Source: Bryoerythrophyllum caledonicum
Taxonomy: Eukaryota > Streptophyta > Bryopsida > Pottiales > Pottiaceae
Direction of reading: 5' to 3'
DNA: 64,000 bases
Assembly: GCA_963971425.1 (NCBI GenBank)
Contig: OZ020515.1
Location: 13,780,291 to 13,844,290, forward strand
In this document: piece by piece, positions 879 to 57,220 of the stretch
How positions within the stretch are numbered: position 1 is the first letter of the stretch
Layout of the letters: each line of letters starts with the position of its first letter
Position numbers and translations under genes: made by a program
The notes under the pieces: model-generated
What the model was told of the DNA's origin: nothing
The model's input: only the letters and a program-made list of their open reading frames with translations
Database searches by the model: none

Positions 879-2740
879 TTGAGCATATGGGACATGGATA
901 GTGGAGGTAGCAAGAAAAAATTAGAAGAGTCTAGTGCATCTAAGGTAGAGATTAGCACCGAGACACTTACCCAGTTGATTTCTTGTCTCCAAGATTTGCG
1001 ACTAAAAGCCTCATCATCCAAGGGCAACTCAAGTGGTGGAGAGTTTGAGTTATTCTCTGAATCCCTGCAGCACCGGGTCCCAAGACTTACGCAAGCCAGG
1101 CACCAAAGTGATGAGTAACAAATCCGTGAAGTGTTGAACCTCACTTGGTGGTGTACGCAAAGTTCGGGTGCTATGGGCAAAGGAGAGTGTCTGTGCACCT
1201 CTTTGTCGTGCTCGAGGACAAATAGAAACTGGAGACCTTGTTATTGGAGATAAGACAATTGTCTTGAGGAACGCTGGGTCAAAGTACGGCGTACGCTGTG
1301 GAAGTGGAAGATTTCCGTCGAGAAGATCAATCGCCCACTTTCTCCCTCATCTTTAGAGAGTTTGAGAGTGAGGGCTTTTTATTTCACACTACATGGCAGT
1401 GGAAAGTAGGTACGTGGCGAGAGCGTGCTAGCAGCCTGTGGGACATTCTCACCGTGAAGTTATTGGATTGGGAGGTTCCAGCGACCATCTATGCTCCTCG
1501 AGATGAAGGACATGCATGAGGCATGGCGCTTCTTTGATTGACCGTGCTAGTTGACAACCTCGAGGAGTGGAAGGGGCCAGGGTTCACTAGGAGGAACACC
1601 TCTTTCGCGGTAGGTGTTGGCAAACAAGATCGGTCAACAAGAGAGGTTGAGAACCAACCTCAGGAGATAGAGGAAACAATTCCACCACCATTTGTAGAAG
1701 AAAATGAGTTTGTGGTAGAATCTTTGACATCTGGTGCAAGTTCCCCACCAAGAAAGCCTTTGCAATCATATTTTGTTTGGGAGCAGATGCTTGAATCACC
1801 ATACGGAGGAGGAGGAGAACGAGGGGTGCGAGGGTTTTTGGGTGCTACGGGGACTATTGAAGTGGATGACTTCAAGAGGGACTTCACCATATGGTGTGAA
1901 CTCCAGAAGTTTTGCAACCCCAACTTCCACCCTTACATGGTGTGGAGGGCGTTATTTGGGTGTGTAGAGGGAGCTCCGTTAGCGGATTATGGAGAATTCG
2001 AGGCGGCTCACCTCACGGAGATATTGGCATGGAGGGATTTTGTATGCACCGAATTACGCGGACGTGTTTCGGCGGAGCTCCGAGTATGCCATCACTTGTG
2101 GAAAATGGGAAGAAGGAGAAGGGCACGAGTAGTGCCGAAGACTTGAGCCAACCGATGAAAACGGTGGCTATTCCACTTCCATTTACGGCCGTATTCTTCA
2201 CACAGATCGGTCAAGACTATCTAGGTCAACGGGCGGATAAGATGAAGGCATTGAGGTCTTTTGCGCAAGGAGGAGATTCGTAGTCTTTGCGGGAGGCTCA
2301 TATGAGATTGCGGAGACTGATTTCTGCTACTCACGGAGTCACGGAGCAGCAAGCGGTGCAACACTGGTACAACATCCTAGAAAAGAAGTTAAAGACCTTA
2401 ATTCGCAATGAGGCATTGCGTGTGGGCGAGCCACCGACTTTGAGATTTGTGTTCGAGACTTCCGAGAGAATTGAGATCAATTTATTGGAGGAGAAAGCCG
2501 CCATGGGATTTCTCAAACGTGAAGAGAAGGTTTATGAGAAGGTCAAGGTGGCCAAGGCTCCGGTTCCATCCTATGCCACCGACAATGGGCATTATGCTTT
2601 AGTTGTGGCAAACCGGGGCATTTAAGGAAGGATTGCAAGGAAAGCAAGTCCTCTACCCTCCAAATCGGTGGCTATTGCTCTGGTTGTGGTGCCAAGGGGC
2701 ATTCCGGGGCTAAGTGTTGGAAGCTTCACCTTGAGTTGAA
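879..2740 (+). pseudogene. gag: Gag-like region with zinc knuckles (broken)
   Basis: Several frames on the plus strand form a decayed gag. They include an acidic Ser-rich start (879-1118), an aromatic-rich stretch (about 1298-1519), a capsid-like region (1538-2146, continuing in another frame to about 2280) and a helical segment (2287-2625). A TAG stop at 2281 and frameshifts separate them. At about 2610-2725 two CCHC-type knuckles can be read across frames (a CGxxGHLRKDC-like one and CSGCGAKGHSGAKC). The region would form the particle shell and bind RNA. It is read as gag because it directly precedes the protease, methyltransferase and reverse transcriptase of the same element. Exact boundaries are uncertain. 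Confidence 0.6.
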
Positions 2741-4290
2741 GCCTTCTGGAGGCAAGGGAGCCAAGGCAAGCAACAAGGCGAAGGAGTCTAAGTCTTCCGG
2801 AGGAGACAAGAAAGGTTGGAAGGCCAAATTCGCAGAGTTGGTGGCTAAGATGGCGGCTATAAGCGCGAATGCTGCTTCAATGAGTAAGAAGCTTCAAGTC
2901 ACTCATAGTTTTCATGCTAGGGGCGGATTTATGCCCGATGATGACGAATTCGGGGATTGTATGCTAAGTGGCATGACACTTGCTATCACGGATGGCTCAC
3001 GGGAGGCTTTTGTCCTTACGCGGAGTCAAACACCGGTGACCAAGGAGGTTCCACGTAGAGCAAGTCCAACCTTGGATCCTCAACATGGAAAGGACAACCG
3101 GAAAGCTCGATTGCTAGTCTTTCACGTTGGAGGAGATGGTGCCAACATATTCCATGGTGCCTCCAACGCGTCCGGGGTGTCAACAACTCGCCCTACCGTT
3201 TGGATTGTAGTGCTATCAACTATGGTGGTGATAGAAGCGGCATACATGGTTTATGAGGATTCATTATTTTTTGCTAAATTGATGTCACAAGGGGGCTTCA
3301 GTCCGACAACGGTCTTCAAGATGGCGGCTCAAATGTATAAGTTGGGTGACTACACGGTTGTCAATGCGTTGAAGTCTTGAAGACGGAAGTACTTGGAGGA
3401 GAGGTGGATAAGAGTCAAGAGGACAACGTGGAAGAGCTGCTTTGAGCAGCCATGCGTGTCAAGACCATGGCCGCCAGACCAACAATCGAGAGGTCATCCA
3501 TTACACCTGGTGTGGTGGTGGATGACAACTCTCGAAGGATTTTCCAACTTGTTGGAACCAAGGGAGGGTTTTTGTACCTCGACGAGTGTTGTTGGATTCA
3601 GAAGCTCAACCATTGATGCTGGGAGTATTTGCCCTTGAGGGGTTGGGTTTGACTGGGGACACTTTGGAGAAGTGTTCACGGACAATTAACACTTTCATAG
3701 GGGGTACGGAGCATGCTACGGGCATCACGAAGGCGGGGTTTATTTTATGACTCAACGAAAATGATGTCGAGGATGCAAACTTTATTAAGGTGAAAACTAT
3801 AGTAACGGAGGCCAAGTCATATGATGTCTTGGTGGGCTTGGCCGTGCTATATCCCATGGGGTTCACCTTGCATTTCTAGGAGGAAACCGCAAGTTATAGA
3901 CCAGGATGGCAAGTAGAAGATGGACGGAAGGCCCAAGTGCCAGCTCGTTTTATTCGAGTTATGACTGGCAACCTTGCAAATGTGTTTGCCTTCTCGGGAG
4001 GCATGAATGTGAGACCACTATGGTTTCACGAGGATTTTCATAATTTCTCGATGGATACTCCTATATTTCATGAGATGGATGCCTATGTGGGTGACACAAG
4101 TGGTAGAGACACGGAGACGTATCAAACTGGCATCAAAGTAGCATGGTAGACCACGACTCAACTTCAAAACGATGTTGAGCAAGTCGTTGAAAATGCTTGG
4201 TAGGATTCTATACTCCTACAAGTTGAAGATGGCTCTAGAAGGGACCAAGCCTTAGGACCACCTCTAGACACTTCCACCATTCACTGGAAG
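2741..4290 (+). pseudogene. Linker and retropepsin-like region (broken)
   Basis: A Lys/Ser/Gly-rich stretch follows the zinc knuckles (2741-2860) and runs into an open frame ending at 3378-3380. Around 3585-3960, read across frames, is a protease-like segment: a hydrophobic strand followed by LLDSEAQPL, where an aspartic retropepsin has DSG. It is followed by SYDVLVGLAVLYPMG and YRPGWQ, a pattern typical of retroviral-type proteases and their C-terminal part. The DSG-to-DSE change fits a G-to-A mutation and would inactivate the enzyme. Stops occur at about 3747 (TGA), 3878 (TAG), 4147 (TAG) and 4200 (TAG). The assignment rests on pattern and on position between gag and the later pol domains. 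Confidence 0.55.
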
Positions 4291-5310
4291 GCACTAGAAG
4301 ATGGTATTGTATTGTTGGAGTTATTCGGCGGGATTGGAAGTAGCTTGGCGGCAGTGCTGCAAGCATGTATTAAGGTTAAACGCTACATCTACGTAGATGT
4401 TGATGAGGCAGCAAGGCATGTGACTAAACGACATTCACGGCAATTGAGGACCCAATTCTGGAACTTATTGGCCACTAGTGCCATCAAGACTTCTTTTTCC
4501 ACCCTTGTTGGTGATATTGCTTTTCTTTCAGCAGAAGACATTTACCGTGTTGGCCATGTGGACCTTGTCATCACGAGATGGCCATGTCAAGGATTGTCAA
4601 TGGCTGGACATTAGAACGGGTTGAAAGATACTCGTTCTTTGCGATTTCATGATATGATTCGCGTATTGCGTTTGCTTCAAACCTCTAAAAAACGACCACC
4701 AGGTTACATTGTGGAGAATGTATCAGTGGTGAGTAGCTCGTGGTCGAGGACATTGGAGGGCATGCACCGCATACACCAGACTCTAGGTTTGCCCGTATTG
4801 TTGGATGCGGCTGCGATGGAATCTCAATCACATCGCCCGCGATTGTGGTGGACGAATTTAACACCTCAAGAGTTGTTATAGTTCGCTGTGAGTCGTATTA
4901 AACGGCCGGATGTCTATATGAATGATATTTTGGATCCTCACAGGGCACCGCGGCGTATTTACCATGACAACTAAGCACCTTTGGCGGTCGTTAACCGCAA
5001 AAGAGAACCACGAAGGACACTGCCCACGTTGGTTAGTTTTGCTCGGTCGTATGCCTTTAAGGATAACGGCCAGAATCTTGTTTGGCATTCCTTATCTCAA
5101 GAGATGGTGGAGCCCAATGCGGATGAACGGAAGAGAGCCATGGGATTTTCCACGGGCACTACTAATGCGCCCGGGATCTCAGAGCAACAACGTCGATTTT
5201 TATTTGGGCAAGCAATGGACTTAAATTGTTTGACGTGGATCGTTTCGTTGCTAGTGGAAGAACAAAAGCGGTTGGCTTCTAGTTTTATCCAGTTACATGG
5301 GGTCTTATGA
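4291..5310 (+). pseudogene. C5-cytosine DNA methyltransferase domain inside the retrotransposon pol (broken)
   Basis: The translated segment shows the conserved DNMT motifs in order. These are motif I LELFGGIGS with a following acidic VDVDEA, motif IV DLVITRWPCQG with the catalytic Cys codon TGT at 4585-4587, motif VI GYIVENV, and motif VIII QSHRPRLWW. The C-terminal motifs are ERKRAMGFSTGT and FLFGQAMDLN, equivalent to motifs IX/X. The length, about 330 codons, is that of a DNMT catalytic domain. It would transfer a methyl group from S-adenosylmethionine to cytosine C5. It lies between the protease-like region and RT of the same element and shares its strand and decay pattern. TAG stops at 4612-4614 and about 4879, and a frameshift near 4930-4970, make it non-functional here, although the catalytic PCQ and ENV are kept. 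Confidence 0.85.
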
Positions 5311-7352
5311 GTTGCAGGTGGCCGGAGAACCATTTGTGTATGTTAGGGTGACAGGCAAAGTGGTTGGAGGCGAGAAGACCTTGGCACCTCATTCATGGAA
5401 CATGTGGGGCTCCGTAAACCTTTTCTCGACACCCAAGACTGAGGATCCTCTCTATGGAGTGAAGGATTGGAGCCAAAATAGGGAATTGGCCCACAAAACA
5501 AAGGATTTGGAGGAAGTTGTGGAGAATATGTTTGTGAGAGAACATACAAGTCACCAAAGAGAGACAATTGGCAAACTATGCCAATTGGAAGGACTTGGAA
5601 GCTTGGATACCACTAGAAGGAGAAGAATCTCCTTCGTATGGCATCCAATAGCAACCAAGGGTTGAGAACCGTGCTCCAACGAAACCGAAGGAGGTGGTGA
5701 CTAAGGAAACTTGGAAACCAGTAGTTGGCCTAGCAGATGGAGCAGTGGAAGTAGAAGAACATGAGTTCCTCAAGGAGTACTTAGATTGTTTTGCCTTTAG
5801 TCTTGAAGATCTTGGAGTGTTGAAAGGGCAAGAAGTACGTATCAACTTGACGGACAATGCACCAATATACCGAAAGCCGTACAAGTATAGCGACGTTGAA
5901 TGGAGGATAATACGCGCTCGTACGGAGGAGTTGGTGGCTGCAGGGCTAGTGGAATTGGCTCCATCGGATAGTGAGTATGCATCGGCGACGGTTATGCCAT
6001 CCAAGAAAGATATCTACGGTAATTGGACCGAGAAGAGGATGTGCGGGGACTATAGGAGGATTAATAATATTCACCAAGTCGGATCGTTATGCCATGCCAA
6101 CGTCGGAAGAGAACTTTGAGGCTATTGGTCATGCCAAGGTGTTTAGTACGTTGGACTTGCGCTCTGGATACCACTAGATTAGACTGAGAGAAGAAGGCAA
6201 GGAAAAGACCCCGTTCTGGGGCATTGCAGAGATGAGAAAGACCGATTGTTCCAATGGAAATTCTTACCATTTGGATTGAAGAATGCGCCTGCCGAATTCC
6301 AGAGGATTATAGACCGAGTATTCTTGGGCTTGGATTTTGTGAGATGCTACATGGACGACATCGTTGTCTTTAGCACGAATCGAAGGCAACATAGGCTACA
6401 CTTAATGTAAGTGTTTGCTAGATTGAGGCTCCACGATTTAAAGTTGCACCCTGGTAACTGCAAATTCTACTTCGACCGCATCGAGTACTTAGGCCACATG
6501 ATATATCCAAGTGGATTAGATGTGGTAGCTAGCAAAATTGAAGTAGTGATGTCTATTCCTAGACCAAGAGATATTAGTAGGCTACGTGCATTCTTGAGGT
6601 TGTGTGATTACTATAGAAAGTTTGTGAAGACTTTCTGTGCTATTGCCAAGCCATTCACCATGTTGACAAGGAATGATCAACGCTGGGTATGGGGAGATGA
6701 GCAAAAGGCGGCCTTTCAAGAGTCGAAGGACTGCTTGGCATCGGCACCAATACTTCGAAGGCCAATAGCCGGAAGAACGTATCAGCTACACACAGATTAG
6801 AGCACATTGGGAATTGGCGCGGTGTTGACGCAAATGGATGACGACTAGGAGTTTGTCATTGCGTACGCCAACCGGTCCAACAATAATGCGGAGGCCCAAT
6901 ATAGCTCGTATGAAGGAGAGTGTTTGGCTGCCATATGGGCAATTGCTCATTTTCGATGTTACCTCTATGGTAATGAGTTCTTGTTAGTCACGGATCATCA
7001 ACCTTTAAAGTGGTTGATGAAGTCTAACAAACCAACAGGCAAACTAGCGCGGTGGGCCTTGATGTTATTGGAATACGACTTCAAGGTGGTGCACAGAGCG
7101 GGATTGGTCAATATGGATGCCGACGGCCTTAGCTGCAATCCGATTTCAAACCAAACAAATGCTATGGGCGTTAGGTGGCACTGGGAGGATGAGGCCGATC
7201 CGTTGCCTGGTTGGCATTGTTCGGCCTTTCTAAAAATATTAGTGATGAGTGGAGATGATACCGGAGCAGCTACTGTGGCCACAATAGATGAGGATGGGGG
7301 TGAAGAATATGGGGGCGCCAAAGACATCTTTGAAGACATGAATTTGATGTAG
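5297..7352 (+). pseudogene. pol: Reverse transcriptase and RNase H region (broken)
   Basis: After a linker (5297-5665), the RT begins around 5694 with a typical LTDNAPIYRKPY lead-in, then CGDYRRINN and TLDLRSGYH. The next stretch, AEFQRIIDRVF, leads to the catalytic CYMDDIVVFS, with YMDD codons at 6348-6359. Downstream are YLGHMIYPSG and RAFLRLCDYYRKFV, then an RNase H with YQLHTD, SYEGECLAAIWAI and TDHQPLKWLM. This order and these motifs are those of Ty3/gypsy. Stops include TAG at 6176, 6799, 6847 and 7350 and TAA near 6409, plus a frameshift near 6090. The YMDD motif survives, but the frame is not open. Confidence 0.9.
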
Positions 7353-8374
7353 TTTCTGAAGAATGGAGAAGTGGTGCCTACGTGGTCCGCTAAGGAGAGA
7401 GATCGGGGTTGACAACGACCCAAACGGTTTGTGTGGAAGAGGACTCACCTTTTAAGGATGTGGCCGGATGGCACGCGGAAGGTTGTGCCGACTCCATTGG
7501 AGAGAGTGAAGCTCATCAAGGACACGCATAAAGACCTTGGGCACTTTGGAGTGCGGAGGACTTGTAGCTTGCTCCAGCTTCACTATTGGTGGCGAGGAAT
7601 GCAAACTCAAGCTCAAGCTTTGGTAGCCCGGTGTATGGTTTGTAATCGTGTGCAAGCGTCTTTTAAGGCTCCGATGCCACAATTGCAACTGTTGCCAATT
7701 ATGGGCTTGGGATATAGGTGGAGCTTAGATTTTGCTAGTCCATTGCTAGTGACACCTCGACACAATAAGTATGTGTTGGTGATGATCGAGCACTTCTTGA
7801 AATAGATAGAATTGATGGCGTTGCCTAACAAGTTTAGTAAGAGGGCCGCTTACTCTTTTCTTGATTGTATTTTGAGTCGCTTTGGAGCTCCAGCGGAAGT
7901 TCTTACAATCCAGGGAAGGAAATTCTTGGATGAGTTTCAAATGTTATGTGAGCAAGTGATGATAGATCACCGCACTACTTTGAAGGATCACCCCAAAGCG
8001 GATGGATTGGCGGAGCGCATGGTGCAAACCGTCAAGAGGGGGCTTCGGAAGTATAGTTCGAAGAAGGGACATCATCAAGATTGGGACTTGCAATTACCTT
8101 GGATAGCCATGGATTACCGGTTTAGCAAGCAAGCATCTTTGGCGTCCTTTTTTCCTTACTTTTTGTTGTTTGGAAGACAACCAGTGTTACCGAAGGCCAT
8201 TCAAGCAGATGCTGACACTGTGTGGGCTAACATGGACAATCCAGATACGTGGGCTCAAGTGTGTGAGCAACGTGTGGATTTGTTCAAGCGGATGATGCCT
8301 ATGGCATTGGAGAATCTCTCAATTGCTCAACATCGGGATACGTTGCGTTATGCTAGAATACGGGGAAGAGGCTA
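7353..8374 (+). pseudogene. Integrase core (broken)
   Basis: The HHCC zinc-binding part is seen as HKDLGHFGVRRTC followed by a CMVCNRVQ pair (about 7520-7660). The catalytic core follows: WSLDFA for the first Asp (about 7722), then LTIQGRKF where the second catalytic Asp is normally found, and GLAERMVQTVKRG containing the Glu. The missing second Asp and a TAG at about 7803 show it is inactive. The frame stops at the insertion point 8374; the remaining C-terminal tail resumes at 10964. Confidence 0.8.
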
Positions 8375-10963
8375 TGTGAACCAAATAAACCCCCCTTAGT
8401 GGAAGGGTTTATTGGGAACAGTGAACCCTAAACCCTACTCACAAGGTTATCATTGCAAGGAGCTCATGCTCCCACATGCACAAGATGACAAGTGTTGAAG
8501 GTATTCTCTATCATATGGTTAGTAAGACTTACTTCAATTAAGTTAGGTGTTTAATTCAATTAATGCACTTATCTTCACTTACAGTCCCTGACTTCTACGC
8601 CCTTCTTTTGACTTCTGATTTACTGTTATTTTATCTTCCTATTACTTTTCTTTTACTGTTCTTTTACTGTTTTTTTTATTACTATTACGTTCACCTTTAA
8701 TTTTGGTTCAATTTCCCTTCTCCAATTACTTAGTCGTCAATACTGATCAGTAACTTTGATTTACTTCATAAAGATTGTACACTCTTGGTGTAACTTCAAA
8801 GCTTCGTGACTTCTGGTGTAATCCTCCAAATCCGGTTTTTCAAACGCCTATTATTACTAATTTTCCACGACCTACTTAATGAGCAATTCACAACTTCAAG
8901 TAAACATGTGTATTGACCCCCAACCAAGCGACCAACAGTGACTCAACTCACAGAACACACAATTCAACACCTTCATGCACCTTCAACCATTATTCGCTCA
9001 ACCAATCAAAAACAATCTGATGGCATGGTCAATCATCATACGAGGTGCAAGTTCATGGTTGGTTTAAGCAACATAGAATCCTCGATTTTTGGGCAACGCT
9101 TCCGCGTGCATTTTTTCAACGGAGAATTTTTTCCACAACTACATCAAGAGCTACGACGCGGCCTTAAGCATTGAACAAGGAAGAGCACAAGTAAGGAAAA
9201 ACATAAGAACAACAATTCTCTGGGAACAGGGGACCCCCTGCTCAGCAAGCTGAGTAGCTCCTCCACGATCTTCCAAACCACGGCCAACACGACCTCCAGC
9301 TGCGACGTCACTCTCGCATCGCTGACCTCCGGCCCGCGACAACCGGCTTCGCACCTCCACGCGCACTCTGCAGCACTACCCCGAACTCCGGCGAGTCGCC
9401 TCCCTCACTCGTGATCACTTCCCAAGTAGCAGCCCTTCTCACGCACCGCAGCCAGCCGCTCCGCCGTCGCTCTCGGCACCACACTCGCAGACGCCACCAC
9501 GTTGCTACCGCCGCAGCGCCGAATTCACTCTCCTCGCCCTTCCTCGCAGCAGCTCATCCAAAGATCTCCCTCGATTCGGCGCGGCGTCCTCGCAACGCGT
9601 TTGACTCCAGACAGCTGCCCCGTCCACACAGGTGCCACTCCGCACCAACACTCCCAATTTGACGCCGTTCGCAGCGCCACATTACCTCGCAGCCACCGCT
9701 CCTCCGTGCTCAGCTCCTCCACTCACAGTCAACAACCCATCACACCGCCGCGCACACCAACCCACGCGCACGTCCTCACCGCCCAAAAAACATTACAACT
9801 CAACTCATTCTGTGCATGCAGCAGACACCATCATTTACACAGCTCTCGACCCCCGCCCACACTTACACATCACAGACCCAACGAACCCCCTCGTAGACAG
9901 ATCCCTCTTCCCTGAACTCTCCAATCCCAGCCTTGTGATTAAAATCACGGACGCCACCACAGCCGCACTTTCCGACCCTGTAACGCCCACTCACTCCGAG
10001 TTTACTCGGCCGCCACTCCAACGTCGACGCCGCCTCCAGCCCACACTTACGAACTTGTTGCACTCTCAAAACCCTGTTTCGCACACACTCTCATAGGCGG
10101 GGCTCTTCCCCTTCGCTGGTCTTCGTCCAACTCATGCTGCGGCTCTCCGCCATTCCCCTCTCCAGACGCGAGACTCCCACAACCCTAAAAAAACTCTACA
10201 CACAAAAAAAAACGAGAGACCCAAAAAAACTCCCTGTCCGCAGTCACCCCAACGCCCTCGAGCTCCCACGGCAGCCGCGCACGCAACTCACGCTGGAAGT
10301 CCAACGTTTCTTCAGCAGATTCCGGGAAATATTCCTCGAGAAAACCCGAAATTCCCCCTCGCCAGCTCGGGGAAGGAAGAAAACAAAAATTAAAAAGGAT
10401 TTTAAAGGTAACTTTGGCATGCCACTAAGGGCAGCCCATGATAGCCAATAATTGGTGCTAATTTCTCCCCTCGTCACCATCTAAACTTTTCTAATTTCTT
10501 CCAAGGCCATGTGCCACTACTTCGTGCATGGTTTTTAATAGATTAACTACAAGAGTGGCCACATCATGGTTGCACTCCGAGTTTTGTTTACTTTTGTTTT
10601 TTGTTTATTTAATTACTTATTTGTTTAATTACCTCTTTGGTTTTTTATTTTGTTTTTCCCAACGCTTCCTCCCATTGTGTTAAAAACACATGGGGTTTGA
10701 GGTGTCTCCCTTTTTTGCAAGAATTCCTTTCTTCTTCTAAGTTTTTTTTTCTTTTAATTTTTAGGTTTTTAACAAAATTAAATCTCCAATTGGGGATGAT
10801 GACCTCCTTCTAAATTAGGAAATCGTAAGTAAAAGGCCTTTTCGAGCCCTTTAACCACAATAGGTGGTTTAGTCTAACCATCTCACCCTAACTACCACTT
10901 CCTAATGCTATTTAGTTAATCTTAATGCCCAAATGACATCGTGAGCAGTTGTTGGGGCTCACA
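8375..10963. mobile_element. TG...CA insertion with 5-bp duplication, probable solo LTR
   Basis: The insertion begins TGTGAACC and ends GGGGCTCACA. It is flanked by the direct repeat GGCTA at 8370-8374 and 10964-10968. Removing it together with one GGCTA rejoins the retrotransposon reading frame around ...GRGY and PQVRRFTP. TG...CA ends and a 5-bp duplication are the hallmarks of LTR integration. Internally it has AT-rich flanks and a GC-rich, Pro/Arg/His-coding-like centre (9200-10400), but no pol motifs, no primer site and no second copy of its ends. A solo LTR left by recombination is therefore the simplest reading. A non-autonomous DNA element is the alternative. Confidence 0.6.
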
Positions 10964-11392
10964 GGCTACCAACCACAAGTGCGACGGTTTACTCCTAGAG
11001 ACTATGTTTATTTGCAGCAAGCAGCGCCCACCACCTTGGATGTGACAGCGGGACGGGTGATCTTGCGAGTTTATGAGGTCAAGAATTCATGCGTGTTACT
11101 GTTGGAGGGACGTGATGGTAAGATATGGAAGGATCACACGCGCAATTGCGCTCCTTGCCATTTACCACACATTGATGGCACAATAAATGCTGGTATTTCT
11201 TACATCTCTGCTGGATTGCAATGTCAATTGTGTGGTAGTGCCAAACGGGCAGCCACAATGGTCATTTGTGACTTGTGTTCTACGGGGTGGCATCTAGAAT
11301 GTCTAACCCCACCTCTTCTAGAGGTACCAGTGGGTCAATGGTCCTGTCCAAATTATTTAGCACTTTGAGAGTCTACACAAAGAAGGTCTAGC
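10964..11392 (+). pseudogene. Retrotransposon Pol C-terminal tail with PHD finger
   Basis: This open frame continues the integrase of the element split at 8374. The first part (FTPRDYVYLQQ, then VILRVYEV and WKDHTRNCAPCHLPHID) resembles the post-integrase domain of Ty3/gypsy. It is followed at 11222-11356 by a Cys4-His-Cys3 array: CQLC, CDLC, a GWHLEC pair and SCPNY. This is the pattern of a PHD finger, a reader of histone tails. The final Cys is replaced by Tyr (TAT), consistent with a G-to-A change. The frame ends at TGA 11366-11368; coding-like residues continue in other frames for about 150 bp. In this element the PHD finger takes the place of the chromodomain seen in chromoviruses. Confidence 0.75.
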
Positions 11393-12597
11393 CATTAAAA
11401 GTGTTGGAGGCGATTAACAATGAGGCTCTTATTGCATCCGACGTATCTTTTGTCTACACGGTCTGTTAGTGTCTTTTCTATAGGTCGCCTTGATTTTTTT
11501 GGACTTGAGAGGTTTTTCATGATTGGTCGTTCTTCCAGTTTACGTTAATTGTGTGGTTTGCCGGTGTGAAAGGGGCTTTAGCACGGGCAAAGGGGGCGAG
11601 TAAAGGGGTCCTTGTAGACCAATTACTAAATGTTGTAGTCTGGGTATTTACTATTTATTTCTTTTTCCCTAGCCTAGGTTGTTGGAGGTTGATAGTTTCT
11701 TTTGTAAACTATTGTTTTTGTTGTCTATGGACGCAACGGTGATAGTATAGTCACCGTTGCTCCGAGTTTGCCTCTAATTATGCGCTCTCACCTGTTGGCA
11801 CGATGGTATCTTTGCACGATATGTTTATGCATGACACGATATTTATATCTAAGTTTGATATAGCCAAACAATTTTGGTTTCAAATGTTTGGGGTATTGGT
11901 TCGATGTTAATGGAGGTTTGTAGTGCCTTTTGATATTGGTTCCACAACCATTGTAGTCTAGAGAGCCGTATGGTTATTAGGTGTCTATCGTTATCTTCGT
12001 ATATGTGGGCATTATCTTGTTGTATTTTGATTATATTTGCTTGTGCGAGGTTGTCTGTTTCGGGGTTGCATTCGGTTACAGAGATGTTGAGGAGGGGGAT
12101 AATGAGCGGTGGTGTAACAAATCTTCTATCTCAAGGTTGTGCTTGGGGGTGGTGTAATTGTATGATATTGAGGTAATAATTGTTTTGGATTTTAAGGTAG
12201 TATTGTGTGAGGATTTTGGTGTTATGTAGAGAGGCGTTTGGGTAGTGCCAAGGGAAAAGATTTCTTTGCGGGAGCCATTTGTGGTAGGTGGTGTTATTGT
12301 GGGACCAATGACATAGGTATGTTGTATGTTGTTTGCTTATGTTATTGGAATCAATGTACTTTCTATGTTTGTGTGTAGTAATGTTGTTTATAGGATATAT
12401 GGAAGGATTTTTTAATATATGTGGTGGAGGGGCATATGGTCGTGAGTGTGGCAAGTTTGAAGGGTTTAATGGGGGGTTGATGTTGGGATAGATGTCATTG
12501 TGACCCATGATGTATGGGTCTTTAAGTGTATAGTGGGGCGTGAGTGGTGCATGGGTTGGGGCCTATGAGGAGGCATTAGAATTGGCAAAATAATTGT
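11393..12597. other. Unassigned sequence, possible retroelement remnants
   Basis: No intact gene is visible. At 11790-11970 a plus-strand segment reads like a weak, broken retroelement fragment (SKFDIAKQFW, VVPFDIGS) but is too short to assign. On the minus strand 12131-12508 is open, but the product is a low-complexity His/Asn/Pro-rich chain. It may be the 3' end of the neighbouring non-LTR element. Confidence 0.4.
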
Positions 12598-14399
12598 TTA
12601 GCAATATTTAGTGCACTTTTTATTAATTTGTGGGGGGTACCGTAGAATGTCATCCATAAGGTGTGTTCCATTTGGTAGTGTGATTTGTTTTAGATCGGTA
12701 ATGTTTGCTGAAAAAAGTTTTTGTAGGAACTTTGTGGATAATTGTCGGTCAAGTCTAGGGAGGATATGGATTTCATTTGCCCAACTTTCTTCAAGCGGTG
12801 CGGGGCCTAGAAGAAAATCTTCTAGTGTGCTTTTTAGAAATGTTTGGCCTTTCGTTTTGAGTAGAAAAAGTGTGCGGGTAATGGGAGACCGGAGGCAATC
12901 AGATTTTTTAAGTCTTTGGAGGTATTTTCCATAAATGCCGAGGATGTGCCGAAGGAGTCCATTGTAAATTAGACCTAGGCGTCCCTTGTCGTTAAGTGCA
13001 TTCTTGAGTTGTTCTCCAATGCAACGTAGGCATTTTTGAGGGAAAAAGCTTCTAGTCCAAATAATTTGTGGGGGACTTGTGTTATGACATTGGGCATACA
13101 ATTAGGGAGTCCGCATACTTTCTTTTGTATGGCTATGATATTTTTGTCAAGTTTGTTTGTGGCGGGCATCAAATAAGGAACTGCATAGAAACTATATGAG
13201 ATACCTGGGCGTATGACGGTCTCAATCATTTTTATTTTTTGTTGCATTGTGGCCGGGCATAGTGTAAGTTCATTGCATTGTTTAATAAGTTTTGTGGTAG
13301 TAGCGTGGATTTGAATTTTCCATTTTAACGATGGGACTAGGTTTATTCCAAGGTATGTATAGGGTTGGTTTTGGTTGAGAACCGGAATTGGTTGGTTACG
13401 ATAGTGGATATTGGTGGCTTGGATAAGGACTTTGAAGGCAATCGGATTTATTTTGGATTTGTTTGGGCATCCGGTTACTGCACATTTTAAAACCCCAAGT
13501 TCCATCTCGGTCCATAGACAAAATTTGTCTATTTTGTCTAATTGAGTTTAGAGTGATTTAAGGCGACCGGAGATCTCAGATGGCCGCTAGATTGTTGGCA
13601 TATGCGGCTGAGTTTACGGTGACTTTTGAGGTGCCAAAGGTGTAGCCATTGTTATCTCTTTGAAGCCATCTCAGTAAAGGTTCTAGAAAAATAATGAAGA
13701 GGTATGGGCTCAATGTATCGCCTTGGATGGTGCCGCGTTGGATAGGGATAGGTCGTGTTTTACCCAAAAATTATCCTACATATGTGGTGGTAGAATGGGA
13801 GTATATGTTGCCAATCAGTGTGACGGCGTTTTCTAGGTACCCGAGATTGCTCTTAATGGCTAGTAAACGAGGATGGTCAATGGATCCAAACACGTTTTTT
13901 AAGTCAATGTAGAGTATGTAAATGTCTTTATTAATGAATTTTGCATCCTCAAGAGCGGCGAGGGTTTGAAGTTGCCGTGCGGTACTCCTTTCGACCCTTC
14001 TTGGCTTTCGTATAATATTTGGTATTTTTTCCCGTAGGCCGATAATATTGATGTTAGTGTACTAGTGTACAATTTGTAAATGGTGTTAGCTAGGGATATA
14101 GGTCGGAGGTTAGGTAGTACAGATGGGTTGCCTTTTTTGTACAATAAGATTGTTTGACTTGTTTTCCAAGATGCGGGAATTGATTTTTGTTTGCAGCAAT
14201 GAAGGAAAAATAATGATAGAAGGTCATGGAATCTTGGGAGCATATTTTTTAGAATTGAGTTAGGTATATGGTCTGGGCCAGGGGCTTTGTTATTTCCCAA
14301 ATTTTTTTGAACACATATCATATGTGTCTTTGTTATAGTATGTGTAGAGAGGGGTTGTTGGTTCCCCTCTTTCGTCAATGGTAAATCCGTCAAGGTCAT
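12598..14399 (-). pseudogene. Non-LTR (LINE-type) reverse transcriptase, broken
   Basis: Minus-strand frames in order carry RT motifs of a non-LTR element: NKAPGPDHIPNSILK and LYKKGNPSVLPNLRPISLAN (13899-14399), then TIQGDTLSPYLFIIFLEPLL (13576-13767). The catalytic box reads AYANNLAAI at about 13590. A canonical LINE has YADD, so both catalytic aspartates appear replaced by Asn. Further frames (12975-13505 and 12598-13101) give the thumb and C-terminal part (YLGINLVPSLKWK, RPGISYSFY). No endonuclease is seen upstream, so the copy is probably 5' truncated. Stops and frameshifts separate the pieces. It is a dead copy; the clade is not assigned. Confidence 0.8.
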
Positions 14400-14580
14400 G
14401 CCAGAGGTATTGTCTCACTCCGCAAGTGCATGTTGATGTATGTTGTCGTTGGAAGTGACATGTGGGAGTAGTTGGTCTATTATTTATAGTTTGTTGGAGA
14501 TGTATTTTGTTTCCAATGTCACCTCGGCTAGTTAGAATGTTGTTGTATTAATCTAGAATGCAATCTAGTGGCAAGTTTGT

Positions 14581-51376: not shown

Positions 51377-54300
51377 ATGTCAGCTAAGGGAAAAGGAAAA
51401 GTAGAAGAACAAAAATTAGCACAAGCGGAACGTTATAGAAGAAGGGCAGAAATGTGGGAAGGACTCAAATTCTTAACAATCAATCCCATCTTTAATGTTA
51501 CACCTTCTCCTAGAAACTTAGAAAATAGAGTTCCATATGAAGACTTAAAACTCCGTAGTACCTCGAGAGGAAGTGCTAGTAATAGTAGTAGTAGAAAGGA
51601 AGAAGAAAACAAATCATCATCATCATCGGAGTCATCTAGATGGTCTCCACCTCGTAGATTACTTCCTTTTTCTACTAGTTCTCCAACTTTTTCATCTTCC
51701 TCAAGTTCTACCGAGAGTTCATCACCTTCAACCCCTCCTACTCCTGAAGCAGTTAGAAATAATTTTGTTAATATGGCACATCATAGAATGTTAAATATAG
51801 CTCCTTTTCCCATATTTTATGGTGACTTAGGAGAAGACCCAGACTCATATTTGGAGAGATTTCAAGTGGTTGCTACGGCAAATGACTTACCTGTTGATAA
51901 ATACATAACTAGTTTCCCTGGAAATCTAGTAGGGGAAGCTCAAAGATGGTATATTGCTTTAAATCCTAAACCTGCTAATTGGGATGCTTTAAAAGATGCA
52001 TTTTTAGCTAGGTTTAGACCGCAAGCCTACCACAATACTTTGCAAGACCAATTACAGAGTTTTCAAATGTACCCTACAGAGACCATCGCAGGGTATTATA
52101 CTTGTCTTAGGAATTTGTTAAACTGATGGCGTGATCATGGAATGCCTGAACCTTGGATTGTTAATACTTTTAGTAGGGGATTGTTAGAACCTATGTGTAT
52201 CTATCAAGTAAAACTATCCAATCTTGCAACTTTAAATGAAGCTTATGAAGCTGCACGAAATTGGGAAGCTGCTATGCAGCGATCCAATATGTTACAAAAT
52301 AATCCTCAATACCGTGATCCCTATCTTTTAAATATTCCTTATCAAATTGGAATGGATAATCGTGGTAGAGATTACTACCCTAAAGCAATACTTAATGAAC
52401 CGCCTTTAAGTATAAGAACTACACCTACTACGACGCAACCATTAGCATTAATGCCTCCTCCTAATAGTAAAGAATCTGAATTGAAGGCATTACAAAAACA
52501 GTTTAAGGAATTGTCAGTGCAAATTAATGAGGGTAGAAATAAAAGACCTAAAGCTACTAACCAAAGAACTAATATATGGTGTAGTAATTGCAAAGGTCAT
52601 GGACATTTAACCACTGAGTGTAGATATCCTATAAATAGTGCACCTTATCTTAAATGTGCTTATTGTGGTGCAAAGGGACATGATATTACTACTTGTAGAA
52701 ATATAAAAGAAGTCAAAGCTCTAGTCCAAGATCAACCTTCTAATAACCAAAAACCGCCCTACCGCGTCACGTCTAAACAACCTTTTACAAGGCCAGGAGA
52801 CAATAGAAATCCTAGAGGAAATAACAATTATAGTCAACATCAAACCTGGAAAGGTCCTAATCAAAATCAGAATAAGGAAATAGTATGTTATAGATGCGGA
52901 GAGCCTGGGCATTATTCTAGGGAATGTCCCAATCCTCGACAACAAGTTGGATATAATCCAATTTGTGGTCGATGTGGTCAACCTGGTCATGTGTCTACCT
53001 ATTGCCCTGCTATTATCACTGAATTTCCCAATGTAAGGAAAAAAGTACAAATACAAGAAGTAGAGTCATCTAATTCTAGAAATGTTAATTACATGGCAAT
53101 AGCAGAACCACACGATGTTTTTATTACTAGATCACAAGCAAGGAAAGCTTTGGAAAAAGAACCAATTAGTAGCTCTGAAAGTGACTATAGCAAAATCAAA
53201 ACCAAACCGATAGTTGGTAGAGATGTACCAATTATACTTAAGAGACCTGAGGTGCTTAAACCATCACCTCAAATAATTGAAATAACTAGTAGTGACTCTC
53301 GAGCAAAATCTGTACAAATTCCTATACCAGTTAAAGAAGTACCTCAACCTCCAATTGTAGAAAAACCAAGTACTTCTATGAAACCACTAGAGCAACCTAT
53401 TTTTTATAGACCATCAAAGAAAATAGCTAAAGAACCATCATTGTCTTTAAAAAAGAGAAAACATAATAGAATCATGAAGTTAGCTGTAGGAATGAACCCT
53501 TATGATATACTCACAGATTTGGATAGGTTACAACCTCAAATATCATTGAGACAATTACTTGCTTTATCACCATATTGCAAAAATGAATTAACATCCTCAT
53601 TAATTCGTAAGAGAGCTAAAACAATTGAAGAGAGTAATGTTAAAACTCCTAAAGCAAAAATAAGAAGTGAGGCAAGTAAAATTCAACTTGAAGTTGTAAA
53701 TGTCCATGATATTTCCTTAGATCCGGGAGCACCTACAGTTGATGTGATTATAGATGGAACTTTGATTGATGGAGTACAAATAGATAGTGGAAGTAGTGTT
53801 AACTTAATGAATGTTGATACTATGGAAGAGTTGGGTATAACTAACATAGTTCCTACTCCCATTATCTTAAGAATGGCCGATCAAAATAGAGTCAAACCTT
53901 TAGGAAAGTTGATACAATTAAGTACAATAATTGGTGGAATTGATTATAAAATTGACTATATTGTATTTAAGGTAAGTGAATCTATATCTACTTATCCTAT
54001 CCTTCTTGGTAGACCATGGCTATCACTAGCCAAGGCCAAGGATGATTGGGGTAAAGGAACGATAACAATAGGGAAGGGTAGAAGTAAAATTATCCTACCT
54101 ATGTTTCCAATAGAGTATCACGGTGAGTCTAAAAATGAGGATTTGGATTGGACAACTGAGGCCGAATCTGAAACTGAACCAGAAGATACTAATATTGTTT
54201 TAGAAATGCCAACCTTTAAAAGTTTAAGTCCTGGAGAGTATTTTGTCCCTCCAAGTCAAGTGGATGACTTGGATGCTGCCATTGAGGCATGGCAAAATGC

Positions 54301-57220
54301 ACCAGTTTTTAATGTTGCTATAGAGAAAGAATCTCATAATGAACCTCCATATATATCAGATTCTGATGAATTAAAAGGGGACAAGAAAATACCTAGTGTA
54401 CGTCCTTTAATAAAAAATACCATGGAAATGAACTTAGGCACTAAAAAAGATCCTAAGCCCATTAAAGTATGCGATAGGTTAAGTCCTCAAGAGTATGGTG
54501 AATGGCATGAATTCTTTAAAAAAGAGAAGGATGCCTTTGCATGGACGTATAAAGATCTTAAAGGCATACCTCCAGATGTTTGTCAACACAAAATCATTTT
54601 AGAAGTGGATGCTAAACCGGTTCGACAGAGACAATATAGGATGAATCCAAAATATTCTTTAATAATTAAGGAAGAGATAGATAAGTTGCTCGAATGTAAT
54701 TTTATTTATCCAGTTCCATTTAGTGAGTGGGTGTCACCTATAGTAATTGTCCCAAAAAAGAATGGTAAAATTCGTATTTGCCAAGATTTTCGGCAACTTA
54801 ACAAAGCAACTAAAAAAGATTACTTTCCTTTGCCATTTTCGGATGCCGTTTTAGATGGTGTTGCGGGACATGAGTGCTATTCATTTTTAGATGGATTTTC
54901 GGGGTATAATCAAGTTCAAATAGCCCCAAAAGATAGACCCTTAACTACTTTTACAACTGACTGGGGAACTTTCGCATATAATGTCATGCCCTTCGGATTG
55001 TGCAATGCTCCAGCTACATTCCAAAGGGTCATGACACAAGCATTTACAAAATATTTAAGAAAATTTATGGAAATATTTTTAGATGACTTTTGTGTGTTTG
55101 GGTCAAAGAAGGATCACCCAACGGCTTTAAAACAATGTTTTGATAGTTGTCGTGAATATGGTATCTCCATAAATGCTGCTAAATCGGAGTTTGTCACTGC
55201 GTGGGGTAGATTATTAGGTCATATAGTATCCATAAAGGGAATAGCAGTTGACCCTGATAAAGTAGCCATTATTATACAAATGGAAATACCTGAGCATTTA
55301 ACCGCACTTAAGGGATTTTTGGGTGCAACGGGTTATTATAGACGGTTTATTTATAAATTTGCATTTATAGCCGCACCTTTGAATGCTTTAACAAAACAAA
55401 CTTTAACACCAGGAGTATGGACAGACGATTGTACTAAAGCCTTTAACAAGTTAAAACGCCGTCTTAGTAAAGCACCCATTCTAATTCCACCAAATTGGTC
55501 CAAACCTTTTGAAGTGTATGTTGATGCTTCCAATGTAGCGATTGGAAGTGTTTTAAGTCAGAAAAATTCTAAAGGTCATGATAGGCCAATTTACTTTGCA
55601 AGTCGACAATTGAGTGCCACAGAGAGGAATTATTCCGTGACAGAACGAGAAGGTCTTGGCATGATCTTTTCTGTTCAAAAGTATAGACATTACTTGTTGG
55701 GATATAAATTTACCTTTCACATTGATCATGATGCTTTAAAGTACATGATCAATAAGCCTCAACTAAGTGGTCGGATTGCAAGGTGGGTTTTGTTATTACA
55801 AGAGTTTGATTTTACTATTAATGTAAGACCTGGGAAAATACATCAAAATGCAGATTTTTTATCACGACTTAGTGAAACTATAAATCCAGAATCCATTGAT
55901 GATAGTTTTCCGGATGCACACCTCTTTTCCGTTCAAGACGGCATTGATGTGGTTGATGTTATTCCTAAGGAATATGCGGATATCATTTATTATTTAACTA
56001 AAGGAACATTTCCACTAGAGTATGTAAGTAATGATAAGACTAAGTTAGTTCATCAATTTTTACCATACACCATGATTAGTGGAGTTCTTTATAAAAGGGG
56101 TAAAGATGATGTCTTAAGGCGTTGCATAAATCCTAGTGAAGTTGAAATGATATTAAAAGGATGTCATAGTGATGCATGTGGGGGACATTTTGCGGGCTGG
56201 GCAACCGCACAAAAAGTGTTAAGGGCCGGCTATTGGTGGCCCACGCTTTTTTCGGATGCCACTAAATATGTAAGGAAGTGTGATCCTTATCAACGTGTCG
56301 GTAAACCAACTGCCACTAAAGCAATGCCCTTAAACCCGATCTTAGCACAGATTCCCTTTGAAAAGTGGGGGATAGATTTTGTGGGACCCATTAAACCTCC
56401 TAGTAGAGAAGGTCAAAAACGTTATATTTTAGTCGCCACAGAATATGTGACTAAGTGGGTTGAGGCAATTGCAACTAAAACAAATGATGCAAATAGCGTA
56501 GCTAAATTCATCTATGAGAATATCATTACTAGATTTGGATGTCCCAAAGAAACAGTAAGTGATAGAGGGACTCATTTCATTAATGATACTATCGAAAAAA
56601 TGTTAAAAAATTATTTTATCAAACATAGAAAATCATCACCTTATCATCCTAGAGCAAATGGTCAAACCGAAAAATCTAATGGCATACTTTGTAAGATCAT
56701 CACTAAAACACTAGAAGGTAATGCATCTAATTGGGATTATGAGTTAAACAACGCATTATGGGCATATAGGTGTACCATAAAAACCACAACTAAAGCAACT
56801 CCTTTCCAATTAGTCTATGGATTAGAAGCTATGTTACCAATAGAAGTGGAAGTACCTTCACTACGTGTCGCAATCTCTGAGAGACTAGAAAATGTTGCAT
56901 CCTTAAAAGAGCGATTTGACACTTTAGAAAGGCTCGATGAAATAAGGGCTCAAGCCTTTATGAATATGGAAGCCATTCAAAAACAACGTAAAACTTACTA
57001 TGATAGCAAATTACAACCCAAAGTCTTAAAAGACAATGATTTAGTATTATTGTATGATAGTCGATTTCAAAAGTTTCCAGGTAAGTTTAAAATGCGTTGG
57101 TTCGGTTTATATAAAATTCTTAAATCTTATCCGAATGGATCGGTTGAATTACAAGACTTTGCTGGGAATGTGCATGCAACGCGCTATAACGGGTATAGAT
57201 TGCGAAAGTACATAACTTGA
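51377..57220 (+). pseudogene. gag-pol: Gag-Pol polyprotein of the Tat-type element, one internal stop
   Basis: The frame runs from ATG 51377 to TGA 57218-57220 (about 1,948 codons) with a single TGA at 52124-52126 inside gag (LLN, stop, WRDHG). Order: a Ser-rich N terminus; capsid (FPIFYGDLGEDPDSYLERF, WDALKDAFLARFRP); four CCHC knuckles at about 52578-53006 (CSNCKGHGHLTTEC, CAYCGAKGHDITTC, CYRCGEPGHYSREC, CGRCGQPGHVSTYC); protease with IDSGSSVNLM (DSG at 53783-53791) and YPILLGRPWL; RT with KIRICQDFRQLNKAT, YSFLDGFSGYNQV and FLDD near 55080; RNase H with VYVDASNVAIGS and HIDHDALKYM; integrase with HSDACGGHFAG, WGIDFVGPI, VSDRGTHFIN and HPRANGQTEKSNG. All catalytic residues seen are intact. 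Apart from the stop it could be active. Confidence 0.92.

Follow-up and report, generated by a model that had tools for sequence, protein, structure and literature searches.

It was found that positions 1520 to 11836 of the window (the whole stretch of 64,000 nucleotides analysed here, on the 40-Mb contig C2) hold a decayed Ty3/gypsy element in which a DNMT3-type cytosine methyltransferase domain (DNMT; 4291-5301, unrearranged) sits between the protease (PR) and the reverse transcriptase (RT). Its parts are listed below; L009, an intact copy, and L013 are other loci of the same family in this genome.

1520..2589, + strand: gag region in two broken frames (tblastn against the intact ORF1 of L009, 61% and 72% identity)
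2589..3377, + strand: CCHC zinc-knuckle region of gag (57% identity to L009 ORF1; PF00098, E 1.4e-5)
3559..4200, + strand: retropepsin-like protease region, in the frame shared with the DNMT (a single 581-column match spanning PR and DNMT, 73%)
4291..5301, + strand: DNMT3-type C5 cytosine methyltransferase domain with three internal stops (motifs, database and structure matches, tblastn)
near 4312, + strand, frame of 4204: motif I, LLELFGGIG
near 4582, + strand, frame of 4204: motif IV, PCQ
near 4714, + strand, frame of 4204: motif VI, ENV
near 4831, + strand, frame of 4204: motif VIII, SHRPR
near 5110, + strand, frame of 4204: motif IX, EPNADERKRAMGF
near 5206, + strand, frame of 4204: motif X, GQAMDLN
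5285..5648, + strand: tail of the gag-PR-DNMT frame 3' of the DNMT, here in another frame (58% identity over 107 aa, to 5605)
5649..5651, + strand: TAG, then CAACCA, the stop between ORF1 and ORF2 (read in the window sequence)
5652..8374, + strand: RT, RNase H and integrase (H2C2 and core), with stops breaking the frame (925 columns at 79% in tblastn with L009 ORF2; Pfam: RNase H, H2C2)
8375..10963, no strand assigned: nested insertion with TGTGA...TCACA ends and GGCTA flanks (duplication; both edges read by eye)
10964..11362, + strand: last part of the integrase ORF, closing with a PHD finger at the C-terminus (83% identity to the L009 ORF2 end; PHD, E 1.1e-9)
11599..11836, + strand: B1, one B copy from the set of split direct repeats (identity 91.6% with the B of L013 and 72% with that of L009)

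In the translation of 1501-8600, the DNMT motifs stand in the usual order, as the earlier note had read them at 4291-5301. Since three internal stops (4612, 4879 and 4972) and frame shifts (after 5285 and elsewhere) break the frame, the copy is dead. A 368-aa stretch of the window DNMT, with X written at its three stops, was used as the query for searches. It gave 173 protein database matches (best E 1.1e-161), and its best solved structure was human DNMT3A (E 2.7e-6). Judged by these matches, whose strength is far beyond chance, the stretch is a DNMT. In Pfam, the first of the three broken pieces matched PF00145 at E 0.24, and the other two had no match. Intact relatives were therefore used instead; PF00145 reached 6.6e-14, above the cut-off, in the DNMT of L009. 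The reading of the window was also extended, the element passing the nested insertion to the PHD finger (~11362) and the B repeat. The insertion, about 2.6 kb in the integrase end of the element, is probably a solo LTR; no terminal repeats were found inside it. The B repeat at 11599-11836 is its sole match in the window, where the A repeat described below had none. Upstream of gag, a 68-bp direct repeat occurs four times at 395-670 (60-72% alike) and probably lies in the leader of the element. Another gypsy-like element at 53003-57217, whose 1405-aa open frame is 27.7% identical to L009 ORF2 and in which a DNMT was not seen, is an ordinary control inside the same window. Decayed frames reading like a LINE RT lie on the minus strand at 12131-14414.

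Is this an isolated copy? The genome searched comprises 437 Mb in 894 contigs. A Pfam DNMT search gave at least 123 scored matches among 1054 candidates, many of them in open frames of 1000-1710 aa. With the L009 DNMT as the query, at least 117 scored matches were found among 2141 candidates, 87-100% identical and nearly all across the full 345 positions; 68 of the 117 had no inner stop, as counted from the table of these matches. The copy numbers are lower bounds, the best candidates having been scored, and the window copy is absent from the 117. Twenty loci of 10 kb were fetched, mostly picked from the Pfam search for long frames, and the sample therefore favours intact copies. One of them (L028) was excluded from the element set, as it holds a different, bacterial-type methyltransferase. 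In 17 of the 19 ten-kb element loci, gag, PR, DNMT, RT, RNase H, integrase and a PHD finger are complete on one strand, and this order agrees with the placement of the DNMT between a retropepsin-like region and RT that had been claimed for the window. The two incomplete loci, L018 (without RT) and L019 (without integrase and PHD finger), both keep gag, PR and DNMT. Among the shorter loci L002-L008, RT lies 3' of the DNMT in six of seven, L002 being the exception.

The order expected of Ty3/gypsy elements (gag, PR, RT, RNase H, then H2C2 and rve integrase) was found, with Pfam scores of PR and gag below the cut-offs (Asp_protease_2 in an intact copy, E 0.0024). The rve (DDE) integrase was found by Pfam in intact copies, and the tyrosine recombinase PF00589 was absent among their Pfam matches. 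No introns were seen in the DNMT of intact copies. Two classes make up the family, a (L009-L022) and b (L023-L027), with 51-54% identity between their DNMTs; both have a PHD finger at the C-terminal end of the integrase. The window copy belongs to class a, and its B repeat is nearest to that of L013. L025 (contig C872) and L026 (C847) represent one insertion with identical flanks on two small contigs, which points to duplicated or allelic contigs.

In the intact copies, ORF1 is 1353-1371 aa long from stop to stop and crosses gag, PR and DNMT unbroken, with the DNMT at its end; the DNMT is thus not a separate host gene. ORF2 (1041-1047 aa) follows in the same frame after one TAG and runs from RT to the integrase-PHD end. 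Of 21 listed loci, 19 have this stop as TAG CAACCA (class a) or TAG CAATCA (class b); in L006 and L017, the frame terminates elsewhere. The window copy keeps TAG CAACCA at 5649-5651, and a class b contig from a metagenome bin (L036, see below) has TAG CAATCA. The earlier note had supposed one Ty3/gypsy polyprotein and proposed a search for intact copies with RT, DNMT and integrase in one frame. Gag, PR and DNMT do share one frame, and the three domains lie on one strand in 17 of 19 loci, but Pol needs readthrough of the TAG in most copies seen. Because the TAG separates them in intact relatives, DNMT and RT do not form one open frame; in L016 and L017, there is no stop between the two and the frame is open. 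Both stop contexts fit CARYYA, which I take to be the readthrough signal of the tobacco mosaic type. RNA folding 3' of the TAG was no better than that of shuffled sequences (z -0.7 to -1.6, four sequences). Provided that readthrough operates here as it does in other retroelements, Gag-PR-DNMT would be the main product and Pol a minor one, so that with a leaky TAG 3' of the DNMT the enzyme would be made at the level of Gag.

The repeats are ordered A1-ORFs-B1-A2-B2 (split direct repeats) instead of forming two identical terminal LTRs. In L009, A1 (372 bp) lies at the start and is 100% equal to A2, and B1-A2-B2 lie 3' of ORF2; class b has the same repeat order with an A of ~365 bp and a B of ~106 bp. 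Within class a, A1 was checked in L009 and in part of L013 (199 bp, 100%). A script recovered both B1 and B2 in 14 of 19 loci, and there the two are 95-100% identical. With the B of L009 as the query, no B repeat was found in L017, L019 and L020 and one was found in L018 and L022, partly because of this query; another search revealed a pair in L018 and L020. The ends examined begin with TGTCA and finish with CGACA (TG...CA). Each of the five separate insertions that were tested lies between 4-bp target duplications (CCTC for L009, AGCA for L023, GTGC for L024, TCTA for the one insertion seen as L025 and L026 on two contigs, and TAAC for L027). In class b and in the L009 group, B1 is immediately preceded by a purine-rich run. 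PAT/DIRS elements have split direct repeats, and the A1-ORFs-B1-A2-B2 order is common to them and the moss family. In contrast to the tyrosine recombinase and the lack of target duplication in DIRS/PAT elements, the moss family has an rve integrase and 4-bp duplications. In the arrangement of its ends, the family thus resembles PAT/DIRS elements, yet its integration has the look of a DDE integrase at work. I would guess that B-A is the ancestral LTR and that the integrated form is permuted.

To which family does the enzyme belong? A profile of 35 aligned sequences matched DNMT3A (4.5e-22) and DNMT3B/3C (3.5e-20 and weaker) best in the PDB, and DRM-type enzymes (5.5e-12), DNMT2 (3.5e-7) and HhaI (1e-6) at lower scores; no chain named DNMT1 or CMT was among its 58 PDB matches. 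A fold model of the L009 domain (mean pLDDT 79, pTM 0.83; residues 224-231 and 236-274 poor) was compared with the PDB, and all 50 listed rows were DNMT3 enzymes or their complexes, the best being 8tdr_A (DNMT3A, E 1.9e-17). By score and predicted fold, DNMT3 appears to be the nearest of the groups compared with the methyltransferase, ahead of DRM, DNMT2, DNMT1/CMT and bacterial enzymes. It has the DNMT3 catalytic fold and motifs in common with host DNMT3 and DRM enzymes but differs from them in being borne by a mobile element and free of introns in the intact copies seen. Moreover, DRM has a rearranged motif order, unlike the element DNMT. In the 35-sequence alignment, the W and P of motif IV are invariant and the C, the Q and the ENVP are nearly so. 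Each of motifs IV, VI and VIII was present in 24 of 25 frames scanned; 21 frames have X, 19 have IX and 13 have I as matched by a strict pattern. Since the frames were picked for parts of IV or VI plus VIII or IX, the motif counts cannot be taken as independent.

Between the DNMTs of L009 and L013, which represent two subfamilies, dN is 0.071 and dS 1.57, giving a dN/dS of 0.045 with dS near saturation (pS 0.66). The ratios elsewhere in this pair are 0.056 (gag), 0.097 (PR), 0.020 (RT), 0.010 (RNase H) and 0.023 (integrase). Synonymous sites are saturated between classes a and b. In young pairs (dS up to 0.15), the median ratio of the DNMT (0.17) is similar to that of RT (0.168). In pairs with dS of 0.15-1, the median for the DNMT (0.177, 20 pairs) far exceeds that for RT (0.024, 43 pairs), the copies compared being different ones. 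L003 has a higher ratio (0.44-0.50 in the pairs shown). By the ratio of 0.045 between the two subfamilies, the DNMT is under purifying selection. CpG depletion was considered as a footprint of self-methylation and rejected, since the values are not specific to the element (coding sequence of L009 0.50, L013 0.78, L024 0.80; in the window, element 0.75, DNMT 0.96, 8-kb blocks 0.55-0.78). No clear host DNMT3 gene was found in the genome with a human DNMT3A query (at least 150 scored matches of 479 candidates), and the examined part of the 150 rows coincides with element copies or long element-like frames. A 47-residue piece at C4:23472028 in this search may be a host exon.

Relatives were found in other streptophytes. 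Among 120 of the 173 matches of the window DNMT that were listed, a metagenome protein is 81% identical over 64% of the query, and proteins of Calypogeia fissa and Sphagnum troendelagicum are 46% and 48% identical. The DNMT part of L009 ORF1 gave 56 proteins (7994 candidates scored), of which 13 are from Marchantia polymorpha (Mp_4g09160, Mp_8g17980, Mp_6g11220, Mp_8g15430 and nine MARPO entries); others named are one from Sphagnum fallax, three from Closterium and one transcript-derived entry (GHRQ01002908). No protein named as from K. nitens was among these 120 or these 56. Since the relatives in Marchantia, a model plant, are listed as hypothetical protein-coding genes, counts of bryophyte 'DNMT3 genes' may include transposons. 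Viral contigs gave one distant match (30%), and prokaryote genomes gave one, the contig L036 (CADCWO010000201.1) in a bin named as a cyanobacterium. L036 belongs to class b and matches the moss copy L024 at 94% identity in the DNMT and 99% in RT; a second gag match lies past its PHD end. From these identities, it looks like moss contamination of the cyanobacterial bin.

The relatives have two layouts. In layout 1, that of the moss family, the DNMT lies between PR and RT; RT is visible after the DNMT in Marchantia P0133, Closterium P0168 and P0173, and P0151-P0153, and in many other proteins assigned to layout 1 gag precedes the DNMT, the frame ends after it and no RT was seen. In layout 2, the DNMT lies before the integrase, and after RNase H where the frame includes RT (P0154-P0156, P0158-P0160, P0166, P0167, P0170-P0172 and P0176, all gypsy-like; supported by Pfam for three proteins). 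A PHD finger follows the integrase in all four fused examples scanned, one of layout 1 and three of layout 2; for P0152, the precomputed domain list has none. In a tree of 38 DNMTs, the layouts lie on opposite sides of one branch supported by 100/99 (19 and 11 rows; eight rows without a layout are uncounted). An RT tree of 18 rows weakly agrees (85/80; short rows dropped, P0175 taken as layout 1 by a weak DNMT match), and in an integrase tree of 16 rows the two layouts are not set apart. The two layouts may have arisen when related gypsy elements acquired a host DNMT3 independently, in two captures rather than in one capture and a move, as the split in the DNMT and RT trees would suggest. Against this stand the RT-RNase H-integrase-PHD set common to both layouts and the unseparated integrases, in trees built without DNMT-free gypsy or host DNMT3 outgroups. 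I regard two captures as having nearly even odds.

Almost certainly, judging from the sequence comparisons, the window holds a dead copy of a large moss Ty3/gypsy family whose Gag-PR frame ends with a DNMT3-type enzyme. The best explanation as a whole, to which I give a probability of about 0.8, is a gypsy family with a leaky TAG and a packaged DNMT that would methylate cDNA. Most ribosomes would stop at the TAG and yield Gag-PR-DNMT, and a few would read through it and yield Gag-PR-DNMT-RT-IN-PHD. The particle would then take up the DNMT in Gag-like amounts along with the RNA and the new cDNA, and the enzyme could methylate this cDNA, with CG as the most likely site, ahead of integration or at that step; the earlier note had likewise supposed that the element's own DNA copies may have been methylated. 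This methylation step, taken by itself, falls a little short of an even chance on the sequence evidence. The PHD finger may help to choose a chromatin target. Host genomes silence transposons through cytosine methylation, and a methyl mark may let the new DNA pass as self. Several observations weigh against this explanation: the frames open from DNMT into RT in L016 and L017, the ordinary RNA folding 3' of the TAG, the unspecific CpG depletion, the yeast test of the Klebsormidium gypsy DNMT (no activity, called inconclusive), the near-saturated dS between L009 and L013, the DNMT ratio far above that of RT at dS 0.15-1, the lack of a clear host DNMT3 gene for comparison in the human DNMT3A search, and the choice of loci by long frames. 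A wider reading would see a streptophyte-wide gypsy lineage with a working DNMT3 since before the split of zygnematophytes and bryophytes, in which a leaky TAG sets Gag stoichiometry for the enzyme, cDNA is methylated within the particle, and a sister group moved the enzyme beside the integrase. If true, each new copy would enter the genome already marked; the reading is doubtful in its full extent.

Alternatively, the DNMT might act not on cDNA but on host chromatin at the insertion site, setting heterochromatin, from a pre-integration complex with the integrase-PHD, where copies are tolerated. The PHD finger in both classes and in the three layout 2 proteins scanned, as well as the DNMT before the integrase in layout 2, would fit this; the moss DNMT, however, lies on the Gag side of the stop and not beside the integrase, and I consider such a role unlikely. 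Somewhat less probable still is that the DNMT fold is kept for binding nucleic acids or methylating RNA in Gag-like packaging, DNA methylation not being the point. The fusion to Gag-PR is in line with it, and an RNA role has been raised for the LINE-type DNMT in the text of PMC5890265, but the catalytic motifs are kept in the 35 aligned sequences and, for IV, VI and VIII, in 24 of 25 frames that had been picked by motif parts. That a host DNMT gene or exon landed by chance in one gypsy copy, as the window alone could have looked, is refuted by the at least 117 near-full-length DNMT copies in the same genome, the same domain order on one strand in 17 of 19 loci and the relatives in other bryophytes, leaving it a negligible probability and sustaining the earlier note's view that this is no chance insertion.

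The preferred reading, a gypsy family with a packaged DNMT, concerns a kind of element that is already known, and what is new here is the land-plant variant. The link to de Mendoza and colleagues (2018) drawn beforehand was right: KnitGypsy-Dnmt3 elements of Klebsormidium nitens are described in PMC5890265 as gypsy elements with a DNMT3 under purifying selection (Ka/Ks under 0.2) and, in a figure legend, with a DIRS-like repeat arrangement. A yeast test of this DNMT found no activity and is called inconclusive in that paper. KnitGypsy-Dnmt3 and the moss family have in common the gypsy domains, an intron-less DNMT3-type domain, DIRS-like repeats and purifying selection. However, the former is from an alga and the latter from a moss, with relatives in liverworts. 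The text of PMC5890265 places the algal DNMT in the Pol polyprotein ORF, while the moss DNMT lies on the Gag side of the TAG; compared by that text alone, the two layouts may prove to be the same. The words 'PHD' and 'readthrough' have no occurrence in its main text. The dinoflagellate SymbioDIRS-Dnmt3 and SymbioLINE-Dnmt likewise carry a retrotransposon-borne DNMT but belong to other retrotransposon classes, the DIRS type having the tyrosine recombinase PF00589 according to the text of PMC5890265, in contrast to the DDE integrase of the moss family. A passage of PMC12344493 citing de Mendoza mentions retrotransposon DNMT3s ('Copia' and 'DIRS' in its wording) in streptophytes and dinoflagellates. 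No earlier land-plant report of such an element was found in the literature searched (titles and abstract openings, with preprints and most subscription papers outside). An element type known before from algae is now extended to land plants, where a multi-copy transposon family whose repeats are still identical in copies keeps a methyltransferase under selection. With one TAG dividing Gag-DNMT from Pol, the amount of enzyme per particle becomes a testable prediction.

The host was taken to be a land plant, and plastid accD identifies it as a moss. Contig C894 has a plastid stretch read as atpB, rbcL and accD, and the identity of its accD is 96% with a cluster named after Timmiella anomala, a moss, 86% with a cluster of Sphagnum and 84% with Physcomitrella. 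Two types of rbcL exist in the assembly, one in L037 (C821) and the other in L038 and L039 (C590 and C894), and some contigs may therefore come from another plant. The excluded locus L028 (C14 near 16016000) has a GC-rich island (59-69%) at ~2000-8000 with AT-rich flanks. The island carries a full-length bacterial-type C5 methyltransferase (TIGR00675, E 3e-69), and four other ORFs of L028 scanned had no convincing NCBIfam family. The island is possibly viral or bacterial DNA in the chromosome.
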